21,280 bases of DNA from a virus. Each line of letters begins with the position of its first letter. Positions within the stretch are counted from its first letter, which is position 1. Position numbers and translations under genes: made by a program. The stretch is from the IMG/VR virus record IMGVR_UViG_3300004770_000140, positions 1 to 21,280 of that record; one strand, 5' to 3'. The notes under the pieces were generated by a model, which had not been told where the DNA came from, made no database searches, and worked only from the letters and a program-made list of their open reading frames with translations. This document shows positions 19,463-21,230 of the stretch, piece after piece.

Positions 19463-20371
19463 ATGGCTATTTCACGCGCACAACTATTGAAAGAGTTACT
19501 CCCAGGCTTGAACGCTTTGTTCGGTTTGGAGTATGCACGATATGGTGAAGAACATACTGAAATCTATGAAACAGAAACTTCAGAACGTTCTTTCGAAGAA
19601 GAAACAAAATTGTCTGGCTTCTCAGCAGCTCCAGTTAAAAACGAAGGCCAAGCCATCGCTTATGACAATGCTCAAGAAGCTTGGACAGCTCGATACAACC
19701 ACGAAACAATTGCTTATGGCTTCGCTCTAACTGAAGAAGCTGTTGAAGATAACTTGTATGACTCATTGTCTGCTCGTTATACTAAAGCATTGGCTCGCGC
19801 TATGGCTTACACTAAACAAGTTAAAGCTGCTGCTGTATTGAATAACGGTTTCAACGGCGCTTATGTTGGTGGCGACGGTGTATCATTGTTCTCTACATCA
19901 CACACTCTTGTTAACGGTGGCACTAATAGCAACACACCAACAGTTGCAGCTGACTTGAACGAAACTTCATTGGAAAATGCAGTTATTCAAATCGCAGCTT
20001 GGACTGATGAACGTGGTCTATTGATTGCAGCTAAACCTAAGAAACTTATCGTTCCACCAGCATTGCAATTCGTTGCAACACGTTTGTTGGAAACTAAGCT
20101 TCGTGTAGGTACTACAGACAATGATATCAATGCGATTGAAAACAATGGTTCAATTCCAGAAGGTTACACAATTAACCACTTCTTGACCGACAACAACGCT
20201 TGGTTCTTGACTACAGATGTACCAAACGGTATGAAACACTTTGTTCGTACACCATTGCAAAATTCTATGGATGGTGATTTCGACACTGGTAACGTACGTT
20301 ACAAAGCTCGTGAACGTTACAGCTTTGGTTACTCAGACCCACTAGGTATGTACGGTTCTCCAGGCGCTTAA
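19463..20371 (+). CDS. Major capsid protein (Mu gpT-like family)
   Basis: A 302-aa capsid protein. It opens with MAISRAQLLKELLPGLNALFGLEYARY and contains SFEEETKLSGFSAAP, ARYNHETIAYGFALTEEAVEDNLYD, a LFSTSHTLVNGG segment and LLIAAKPKKLIVPPALQFVA. I recognise these as the Mu gpT-like (HK97-fold) major head protein group. It would form the icosahedral shell. GGAG about 10 nt before the ATG gives the start. Codon choice is strongly biased (ACA, GCT, CGT), as expected for the most expressed gene. A strong terminator follows 15 nt after the stop. Confidence 0.88.
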   Translation: MAISRAQLLKELLPGLNALFGLEYARYGEEHTEIYETETSERSFEEETKLSGFSAAPVKNEGQAIAYDNAQEAWTARYNHETIAYGFALTEEAVEDNLYDSLSARYTKALARAMAYTKQVKAAAVLNNGFNGAYVGGDGVSLFSTSHTLVNGGTNSNTPTVAADLNETSLENAVIQIAAWTDERGLLIAAKPKKLIVPPALQFVATRLLETKLRVGTTDNDINAIENNGSIPEGYTINHFLTDNNAWFLTTDVPNGMKHFVRTPLQNSMDGDFDTGNVRYKARERYSFGYSDPLGMYGSPGA

Positions 20372-20385
20372 TCCCGCTCGGTAAT

Positions 20386-20412
20386 AAAAAGCCCACTTCG
20401 GTGGGCTTTTTT
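20386..20412. terminator. Bidirectional intrinsic terminator after the capsid gene
   Basis: GCCCAC, TTCG tetraloop, GTGGGC (20391-20406), with five As before and six Ts after. An outer pair GGTAATAA (20380-20387) and TTATTACC (20418-20425) can extend the structure. CGCTC(A/G)GTAAT is repeated on both sides. It ends late head transcription and separates the following cassette. Confidence 0.92.
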
Positions 20413-20450
20413 GTTGTTTATTACCGCTCAGTAATTCATGATTTTACGTA

Positions 20451-20478
20451 TTGTAGTAGCTATAAAAGTGTCTATAGT
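20451..20478 (+). promoter_or_regulatory. Candidate promoter of the pqqA cassette
   Basis: TTGTAG (20451-20456), a 16-nt spacer and TATAGT (20473-20478). It is the best promoter-like pair between the capsid terminator and pqqA and would give a leader of about 45 nt. Moderate match only. Confidence 0.45.
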
Positions 20479-20528
20479 GAAGCTTATCCGAGGTAATGGA
20501 TATTTTAATGACTATTAGGAGATACATC

Positions 20529-20600
20529 ATGTGGACTAAACCAGCTGCTACTGAAATGCGTTTTGGCTTTGAAGTGACTATGTACGTAATGAATAAATAA
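20529..20600 (+). CDS. pqqA: PqqA, pyrroloquinoline quinone precursor peptide
   Basis: A 23-codon gene. The peptide begins MWTKPA and contains FGFEVTMY; Glu15 and Tyr19, in the order E-V-T-M-Y, are the two residues that bacterial PQQ synthesis joins to make the cofactor. Length, N-terminal WTKPA and the E-x3-Y core match PqqA of proteobacteria along the whole peptide. In the known pathway PqqD presents PqqA to the radical-SAM enzyme PqqE, which links the Glu and Tyr; proteases and PqqB/PqqC then finish the quinone. AGGAG (20517-20521) is 7 nt before the ATG, so the gene is well placed for strong translation. It has a likely promoter, lies after the capsid terminator, and is followed by a hairpin and a tRNA. 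No other pqq gene is in the window, so host enzymes would be needed. It is too short for usual gene finders. Confidence 0.92.
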   Translation: MWTKPAATEMRFGFEVTMYVMNK

Positions 20601-20617
20601 GTTATAATTCATACGGG

Positions 20618-20681
20618 CTGGGGGTACCTAGCCGAACGTGAACACGGCCCCCATCGGTTAATTCTGCTTGGGGGTTCTTTT
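20618..20681 (+). ncRNA. GC-rich structured element between pqqA and tRNA
   Basis: Three tracts: G5 (20620-20624), C5 (20648-20652), G5 (20670-20674). The first G tract can pair with the C tract, with CCG (20632-20634) and CGG (20645-20647) pairing inside. Alternatively CCCCCA (20648-20653) pairs with TGGGGG (20669-20674), followed by TTCTTTT (20675-20681), as an intrinsic terminator. The two folds exclude each other. It may be simply the pqqA terminator, or an attenuator or small RNA. TATAAT at 20603-20608 upstream could act as a -10 box. Confidence 0.5.
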
Positions 20682-20756
20682 GCCCAGTTAGCAGAGTGGT
20701 AATGCGCCTCACTTGTAATGAGGATATCGGGAGTTCGATTCTCTCACTGGGCACCA
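20682..20756 (+). tRNA. tRNA-Thr (anticodon TGT)
   Basis: A 75-nt tRNA. The 7-bp acceptor stem is GCCCAGT/ACTGGGC, the anticodon stem CCTCA/TGAGG holds a loop CTTGTAA with anticodon TGT (reads ACA), and the T arm is GGGAG-TTCGATT-CTCTC. The discriminator base is A and the CCA end is encoded (20754-20756). The D stem is short (GCA/TGC). All elements needed for function are present. The neighbouring capsid genes use ACA as their main Thr codon. A T-run follows directly after the CCA. Confidence 0.93.
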
Positions 20757-21097
20757 TCTTTTTTAGCTTTATTTTCTTCGTAGTGATGTTTTCGGTGGCA
20801 GTTGCTGCAGAGGACAATACACTTATTCATAATTTCTTCCATAGCAAAACCTAATCTGCCTGAACGAACTAACTCATTAATCTTGATATTGTCGGGATGG
20901 GGGGTGTGATGGTGGAAATCTAAAGTTGCTGGGTGGTTTTCGCCGCACTGAACACAGGAAAGTCGGGCTTTAAAAGCAGAAAATTCCTCCCGTGCCCTGC
21001 GTTTTGTCTTTACAGACCTGGCTATACTTGGCGCAGGGTTAGCCTTATACAACTCCCTTGCTTTGGCGCGTCTACGTTCTGGGTCTTTATAAGGCAT
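20744..21097 (-). CDS. HNH endonuclease
   Basis: A 117-aa protein with the HNH/zinc-finger nuclease pattern: C48-x2-C51 (CVQCG), LDFHHH at 59-64, and C97-x2-C100 followed by HRKHH (CSNCHRKHH, 97-105). The N-terminal 40 residues are very basic (PERRRAKARELY, KTKRRAREE), suited to DNA binding. GGAG lies 5-6 nt before the ATG. It runs toward the tRNA, and its stop codon (20744-20746) falls inside the 3' end of tRNA-Thr, so the last codons are antisense to the tRNA acceptor and CCA end. Stand-alone HNH genes in phages are often homing elements, though some assist packaging; the former fits this location better. Confidence 0.85.
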   Translation of the reverse strand: MPYKDPERRRAKARELYKANPAPSIARSVKTKRRAREEFSAFKARLSCVQCGENHPATLDFHHHTPHPDNIKINELVRSGRLGFAMEEIMNKCIVLCSNCHRKHHYEENKAKKDGAQ

Positions 21098-21142: not shown

Positions 21143-21163
21143 TCAACTATCTGGGAATTTATA

Positions 21164-21217
21164 TTCTTACCAACTGCCCCAGCAGGCGATGCAACGATGG
21201 TAAGAAAACTTTTGCAT
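21164..21217 (+). promoter_or_regulatory. Pseudoknot-forming RNA leader
   Basis: A 9-bp stem TTCTTACCA (21164-21172) with TGGTAAGAA (21198-21206). Its loop contains a small hairpin CTGC/GCAG (21174-21177, 21182-21185) and ATGCAA (21189-21194), which is complementary to TTGCAT at 21212-21217. That segment ends directly at the ribosome binding site AAAGGA (21218-21223). Such a fold could control translation like a riboswitch or protein-binding leader. I recognise no known class. Confidence 0.55.
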
Positions 21218-21230
21218 AAAGGACTTCAAA

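Follow-up and report, generated by a model that had tools for sequence, protein, structure and literature searches.

Viruses with PqqA, the precursor peptide of the cofactor PQQ, and with methanol dehydrogenase were reported from Lake Baikal in 2020 (PMC7678222), and viral pqqA has also been listed among phosphorus genes (PMC13188868). In the Baikal methylotroph virus VP_266, viral pqqA was proposed to boost methanol oxidation, as we propose here, whereas VP_266 is a T4-like scaffold that carries methanol dehydrogenase too, and pqqA in our case stands alone and is widespread (PMC7678222). In the same paper, phage P19250A is said to have none of the authors' putative auxiliary genes; contrary to this statement, P19250A does carry an unannotated pqqA. 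The first-pass annotation of the present locus knew of no well-described viral system built on pqqA alone; viral pqqA was, however, not wholly unknown, given the Baikal scaffold of 2020 (PMC7678222). What appears to be new is the breadth of viral pqqA, the cassette in which it lies and the control elements shared with the hosts; viral pqqA itself was known (PMC7678222, PMC13188868). A term search of the papers on Melnitz, Venkman, MEP301 and MEP401/402, confined to their main texts, brought up no phage pqqA, and in the open-access literature we came across no account of phage pqqA as a general trait or of a leader RNA of the type called R1 below. Another parallel is offered by cyanophage psbA, where the phage genome likewise provides a host component whose consumption limits the energy supply in infection; the difference lies in its being a protein that turns over rather than a peptide substrate.

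The hosts themselves provide a further precedent. Methylophilaceae have been described with 3-12 pqqA copies and typically one copy of the other pqq genes (PMC4109929). In our analysis, these extra copies have in common with the phage genes the same peptide, a mostly stand-alone position, and an operator and terminator, whereas the phage ones lie on viral genomes and at many different places. PqqA availability is reported to be rate-determining in Methylovorus MP688 (Ge et al. 2015, as cited in PMC11317620); in work on a methylotroph with five pqqA copies, pqqA expression was higher in a PQQ overproducer and overexpression of whole pqq clusters brought limited gains (PMC9851590); and pqqA was reported as non-essential for PQQ in Methylobacterium extorquens AM1, where orphan copies were not examined (PMC11317620). 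All 100 genomes that we sampled from the host family (that of a Methylotenera genome, taken as Methylophilaceae) have PqqA, 97 of them in two or more copies (mean 4.3, range 1-12). Since the hosts are multi-copy for pqqA and PqqA is reported to be rate-determining, PQQ flux could plausibly be raised through additional pqqA, and in carrying it the phages follow their hosts. The raised or maintained PQQ supply from an extra copy that had been proposed from the sequence fits both the host copy numbers and the Methylovorus result (PMC11317620), its function remaining an inference; no infection experiment on a phage pqqA was found in the literature.

The pqqA gene of the window and its place after the capsid gene

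The window, by which we mean the whole stretch of 21,280 bases analysed, is an IMG/VR record with terminase, portal and major head protein genes (Table 1). The first-pass annotation had described in it a 23-codon gene with a perfect ribosome binding site, whose product matches PqqA from end to end and keeps the E-x3-Y pair, and this description held in every part. The open reading frame lies at 20529-20600 on the plus strand, has 23 codons and a TAA stop, encodes MWTKPAATEMRFGFEVTMYVMNK and is preceded by a Shine-Dalgarno sequence 7 nt ahead of the ATG. The peptide matches Pfam PqqA PF08042 (E 6.4e-11, 42.4 bits against a cut-off of 21.1, profile positions 1-19 of 19) and NCBIfam TIGR02107 (40.4 bits, cut-off 20), in both cases well above the cut-off, so that a failure to match the profile, which would have refuted the assignment, did not occur; the MWTKP start and residues E15 and Y19 are retained. 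A PHROGs search of the gene returned no family at E up to 0.01. The gene is thereby confirmed as a genuine pqqA, resembling its family in the full-length match, the WTKP start and E-x3-Y, and differing from it in being phage-encoded and alone, without pqqBCDE in the window.

Table 1. Features around pqqA in the window
Feature	Coordinates	Strand	Remarks
Major head (capsid) protein gene	19463..20371	+	PHROG 371, E 1.1e-22; upstream neighbour of pqqA
Intrinsic terminator 3' of capsid gene	~20386..20413	+	11-pair stem with T tail; fold z -5.5
Operator-like element TTCATGATTTTACGTAT	20435..20451	+	Diverged form of host palindrome CTMATGRWWWYCATKAG; inferred from position and relatives
-10-like hexamer TATAGT	20473..20478	+	37 nt after motif start, spacing as in viral motif; -35 not recognisable
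Possible short leader hairpin	20485..20502	+	Folds, but z +0.2 for the single sequence; weak alone
Shine-Dalgarno AGGAG	20517..20521	+	Read from sequence
pqqA, 23 aa plus stop	20529..20600	+	Profile matches
Likely pqqA terminator	20646..20681	+	G+C-rich hairpin 20646-20676, then CTTTT
tRNA-Thr (TGT)	20682..20756	+	Downstream of pqqA
HNH endonuclease	20744..21097	-	PHROG 3106 and 2255; belongs to insert between capsid gene and next structural gene

The control signals of this copy are weak. No promoter was found before it in a generic sigma-70 scan, its operator-like site matches 12 of 17 consensus positions and reaches 1.8 bits by the host matrix described below (threshold 6) while fitting the phage motif, and its leader is no more structured than shuffles (z +0.2). 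Downstream, positions 20601-20684 fold into two hairpins (-32.5 kcal/mol, z -2.8); a stricter terminator scan did not list the hairpin at 20646-20681. An Rfam search over the window brought only the tRNA to its gathering score. The tRNA gene adjoins pqqA here (20682-20756) as another tRNA gene does in Melnitz EXVC044M (76134-76303).

The surroundings of the gene were compared in the best 80 of at least 600 IMG/VR matches to the capsid protein (87-95% identity), with flanks of up to 3 kb that often ended with the contig. The PqqA pattern occurs in the fetched stretch of two of these 80, L297 (95%) and L309 (90%); in L297, which is the same contig as L078 and whose capsid protein is 95% identical, the same peptide is encoded some 170 nt beyond the capsid gene; this second occurrence, together with the at least 331 viral loci described below, excludes a chance resemblance. 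Wherever relatives carry pqqA its frame is unbroken, which leaves the refutation by a disrupted frame without support, yet most capsid relatives have no pqqA at that place. We read the post-capsid stretch by eye in 32 of the best 80 relatives and found its contents to vary: in some, L310 and L315 among them, nothing is inserted between the capsid terminator and a conserved leader that precedes the next structural gene, other siblings have endonuclease-like or unknown genes after the capsid gene, and some end too early to judge. Because siblings show other inserts or none there, the cassette of the window seems to sit in an insertion hot spot, and because pqqA shows, within the fetched stretches, in only two among the best 80 of at least 600 capsid relatives, it is dispensable for phages of this type. 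The position after the capsid terminator, as first claimed, is right, whereas membership in a late operon is not, as the gene lies in an inserted stretch; it looks like a transcription unit of its own. Of the two marks of a moron, an extra gene absent from close relatives and its own promoter and terminator, the first is met within those fetched stretches, and for the second the statistics over viral loci favour both elements while the window's own promoter is weak. Of the marks of an auxiliary metabolic gene, a host-type metabolic gene on a bona fide phage genome is evident from the capsid, portal and terminase genes of the window and from the cultured phages, whereas expression in infection and a benefit to it are inferred.

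The leader before the next structural gene (window 21149-21222, also in L310, L315, L317 and L302) is highly conserved, reading CTGGG ... CCCAGCAGACGATGCAACGAT ... CTTTTGCATAAGG. Judged by eye only, CTGGG/CCCAG and GATGCAA/TTTTGCAT appear to pair near the Shine-Dalgarno sequence. It had no Rfam match in the window, and is possibly a translational control RNA of these phages.

Spread among viral contigs and cultured phages

Four degenerate DNA pattern scans of IMG/VR yielded at least 331 viral loci with pqqA, 330 of those listed having a complete peptide, and the 331 listed loci fall into 320 distinct neighbourhoods (200 nt on each side). The first-pass annotation thus underestimated the scale: with nine cultured records besides, pqqA is a trait common to many methylophages, and we regard its identity and spread as well supported. 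Among the matches listed, the exact window peptide is encoded by 29 different DNA sequences. In 3000 sampled pairs of the 129 unique 23-codon genes listed, pS was 0.67 and pN 0.135 (pN/pS 0.20), a contrast inflated by the several residues that the search pattern fixes; positions left free are also conserved among these matches, F14 in 128/129 and N22 in 120/129. The scan that left E and Y free found E-x-T-x-Y kept in 119 of the 120 peptides listed, the remaining one (L130) being cut by the locus end. In many cases the phage peptide is identical to bacterial copies.

Several variants were seen on the way. T stands in place of K, as in an MWTTP start, in 119/330 listed viral copies, one scan having been aimed at such codons. 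Gamma-like viral pqqA genes (RLGFE ... MYF), picked by eye, include L010, L015, L017, L021, L025, L031, L038, L042, L081 and L121, and several of them start 9-10 nt after the upstream gene. Since the gamma-like genes lack the Methylophilaceae operator and some closely follow an upstream gene, phages of other PQQ-making hosts probably carry pqqA too. One viral contig with a single pqqA, IMGVR_UViG_3300023174_000036, is 356 kb long.

Among 50,697 phage records, 12 matched the window peptide by tblastn, and a gamma-like PqqA query recovered the same 12 and no further ones. Nine of these records belong to cultured phages of Methylophilales/Methylophilaceae, with one each for Venkman, P19250A, MEP301, MEP401 and MEP402 and four for Melnitz, and the tenth is a phage from Manatee Spring. 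The two 'Acinetobacter phage MD-2021a' records were dropped as phage evidence, as the one that was opened (CAKLQF020000010.1) proved to be a bacterial pqqABCDE operon; that record also holds other chromosomal-looking genes. The expectation that annotation pipelines would miss so short a gene was borne out, for in none of the ten phage records is the match annotated as pqqA, the feature being either none or 'hypothetical protein'; in the seven records opened, an opposite-strand frame is called over pqqA in Melnitz EXVC044M and the Manatee phage, and no gene in the other five. The cultured phages form four groups, namely Melnitz (141 kb, Kyanoviridae), MEP401/402 (Zobellviridae), MEP301 (35 kb), and Venkman with P19250A (39 kb), the last two being counted as one because the Venkman paper places them in one genus-level cluster (PMC8163748). 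The cultured total is uncertain, as the taxonomy also lists MEP431-434, HIM624-A, phiMB624-A and Venkman EXVC038S, which are perhaps absent from the collection.

Otherwise dissimilar phages are alike at the DNA level, over the pieces compared, only in pqqA. To a 3.9-kb piece of L297, P19250A, Venkman, MEP301, MEP401, MEP402 and the Manatee phage match only at pqqA, over 77-94 nt, while Melnitz gave no match there at pqqA; capsid genes of Pelagibacter, Roseobacter and other phages also match this piece. Apart from Venkman itself, the Manatee phage was the sole record to which megablast aligned an 8-kb Venkman piece, and that alignment covers 85 bp at pqqA.

By tblastn with Acinetobacter queries, pqqB, C, D and E were found in none of the 331 listed viral stretches, and the same queries detected pqqB in 83 of 118 bacterial pqqA loci of up to 8 kb. 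This bears on the possibility that the window joins host DNA to phage DNA by contamination or faulty assembly, for which one might cite the identity of the peptide to some bacterial copies and the 'Acinetobacter phage' record that turned out to be bacterial. Cultured phage genomes have pqqA, however, and a second contig of the window phage type, L297, repeats the arrangement; with no pqqB-E in any listed viral locus, this leaves the chimera, named from the start as what would refute the gene, very unlikely, to the point that we give it next to no credence.

Operator, cassette and leader RNA

A motif like TAATGATTTTC, mostly 80-95 nt before the ATG, was found in 49 of 117 listed viral upstreams (2.1 expected). 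Of its 61 occurrences upstream of pqqA, 42 are followed at 32-44 nt by a TATAAT-like box, compared with 33 of the 139 that lie at other places in these loci. The palindromic form of the motif, CTMATGRWWWYCATKAG, stands at many bacterial Methylophilaceae pqqA genes and is absent at some (e.g. L202, L214). Outside OM43-like genomes, 32 of 36 host pqqA copies match at least 14 of 17 positions, against 1.25% in shuffles, one of the 32 (L391) being a spurious match beside the Shine-Dalgarno sequence. A matrix built from 31 host sites alone recognised 94 of 212 dereplicated listed viral upstreams and 1.2% of random segments. Addition of the phage motif, itself trained on a portion of these viral sequences, brought the number recognised to 143 of the 212, while random segments scored positive in 2.1% of cases and regions upstream of other genes in 2.7%. 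All positives belong to Methylophilales-like genes (143/202 listed), with none among the ten gamma-like ones. In cultured phages the scores were 18.9 bits for Melnitz, 15.3 for Venkman, 7.9 for P19250A, 4.1 for MEP301 and at best -1.4 for MEP402.

The exact CTMATGRWWWYCATKAG-type pattern is rare in 12 host genomes, mostly chosen because their pqqA showed the operator: 0-4 sites each, present in 11 of 12, and none for a reversed control. Of 18 sites with their locus, 13 have pqqA within the 1.5-kb flanks, three presumably stand at pqqB, which we recognised by the N-terminus, and two (L287, L294) have neither. With so few sites per host genome, a replicating phage could titrate the host PQQ regulator, and the control region rather than the peptide might be what matters. 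To this we attach very little weight, given that the peptide is clearly constrained and that all ten listed gamma-like phage genes keep it without any operator.

For the viral set, the picture of pqqA as a self-contained cassette with its own control region, leader, gene and terminator is well supported; for the window it is weaker. The upstream neighbour lies on the opposite strand in 132 of the 298 listed loci with both neighbours called (by a simple longest-ORF caller), and these 298 have 147 distinct neighbour pairs and fall into 37 groups, of up to 177 loci, that have no neighbour family in common. Of 117 dereplicated listed upstreams, 81 contain AGGAG in the 20 nt next to the start codon; a terminator-like hairpin is present within 110 nt downstream in 57 of 114 dereplicated listed loci (4.4 expected in shuffles), and the leaders of the listed viral loci are more structured than random segments (mean z -1.16 vs -0.28). 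A canonical -35/-10 promoter was rejected as part of the cassette, since the best scores barely exceeded those of shuffles (mean 8.37 vs 8.25; 11 listed loci at a score of at least 10 vs 6.2 expected) and none was found in the window.

In small OM43-like hosts and some viral loci the leader takes a definite form, R1, composed of CUCAAG, a 5-bp helix with a variable hairpin between its partners, and UGAnCUG. In a set of 15 sequences, 11 of them viral and 4 from hosts, pairing of the helix reaches 97%, and its covariation is 0.779 vs 0.274 when shuffled and 20 double-change cells vs 5.7; over 37 sequences, in an alignment fitted to the structure, pairing is 98.8%, covariation 0.684 vs 0.261, and double-change cells 37 vs 10.1. 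In both sets, the two measures that count pairs or pair types were not above shuffles. A conserved, covarying structure in the 5' leader, as expected of a riboswitch, is thus present, and an effect of a ligand on expression has not been shown. With scoring limited to 150 candidates per genome, a single strong site (E up to 1e-5) was present in each of 11 among 20 small genomes, always directly upstream of a tandem pqqA pair, and two weak ones (E 0.38, 0.72) were without pqqA. In these OM43-like hosts (L415-L418, L419-L429) the first of the tandem copies starts with MWTQP or MWTTP instead of MWTKP. Over the 331 listed viral loci, the window and six phage regions, the model found 27 viral matches at E up to 1, of which 26 lie 31-51 nt before pqqA on the same strand and the last (L130) has its pqqA cut by the locus end; 16 of the 27 are outside the training set, 60-100% similar to the nearest training leader (L443 equals L034). 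R1 was not found in the window.

In an Rfam search of 13 pqqA loci, no family reached its gathering score over the R1 leader; the only hit above that score was ROSE_3 in L068, far from pqqA, and BTnc005 overlapped the leader of L030 below threshold (25.8 vs 174.8 bits). A c-di-GMP riboswitch lies beside pqqA of Methylophaga GP59 (PMC12530212), likewise an RNA element with a methylotroph pqqA, and is of a different class from R1, which has no Rfam match above the gathering score. Operator and leader elements are common to phages and hosts, and they suggest that PQQ synthesis involves a host operator not described so far and, as a candidate, a regulatory RNA.

The proposed role of phage PqqA

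We consider it likely that phages supply consumable PqqA to the PqqBCDE enzymes of the host and so sustain PQQ-dependent methanol dehydrogenase, by means of an autonomous cassette carried in phages of Methylophilaceae and some other methylotrophs. The cassette would be transcribed by host polymerase in infection, probably under the regulator of the host's own pqqA copies; host PqqD and PqqE would bind the phage peptide and cross-link it at Glu15 and Tyr19, and PqqB/PqqC would finish PQQ. As one PqqA is consumed per PQQ and the hosts seem limited by substrate rather than enzyme, the extra gene would keep methanol dehydrogenase charged during phage replication. Transcription in infection, processing by host enzymes including the PqqE/PqqD cross-linking, and the benefit through methanol oxidation are all inferred, and so, from pqqA alone, is the host of the window phage. 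The explanation is further limited by the lack of expression or infection data, by the reported dispensability of pqqA for PQQ in M. extorquens AM1 and by the absence of the gene from most capsid relatives in the fetched stretches, and in the window by the weak operator and the absence of a sigma-70 promoter and of R1.

A lone precursor could in principle also compete with host PqqA, the more so as the enzymes are missing from every listed viral locus, and act as a decoy that occupies PqqD/PqqE and thereby blocks host PQQ synthesis or diverts the enzymes. A decoy would be expected to lose E and Y, yet both are kept in all 119 complete listed peptides from the search that left them free, and many phage peptides are identical to bacterial copies; we therefore think it improbable and give it little weight. 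Less easily set aside, though still unlikely in our view, is another need for PQQ or PqqA, be it in handling lanthanides for XoxF, in protection against redox stress or in some PQQ enzyme besides methanol dehydrogenase. Methanol dehydrogenase was found in none of the 34 viral pqqA records examined, many of them fragments; the Methylophilaceae hosts, on the other hand, use methanol and other C1 compounds. In M. extorquens, orphan pqqA copies respond to the form of the lanthanide, and it has been suggested that they take part in its uptake (PMC11317620), whereas methanol dehydrogenase is encoded on phage scaffolds from Lake Baikal, of which one has pqqA as well (PMC7678222).

Beyond the supply of substrate to the host enzymes, it is tempting to speculate, on evidence that leaves us somewhat more doubtful than convinced, that pqqA is the common gene of methylophages, whose different lineages each carry a miniature host pqqA unit with its operator, to which OM43-type phages add a new class of small structured leader RNA, perhaps a sensor of PQQ or of some related metabolite. 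If true, phages would here boost a pathway through its consumable substrate only, under host metabolite control. It would also make a clean case of an auxiliary gene that gives a consumed substrate rather than an enzyme, with host-type regulatory signals. Should most Methylophilaceae phages carry pqqA, a 72-bp gene skipped by gene callers in cultured phages would be a usable marker of methylotroph phages. In coastal and fresh waters, Methylophilaceae (OM43, LD28) count among the important oxidisers of methanol, and in that event infection would directly tune their PQQ supply and methanol oxidation.
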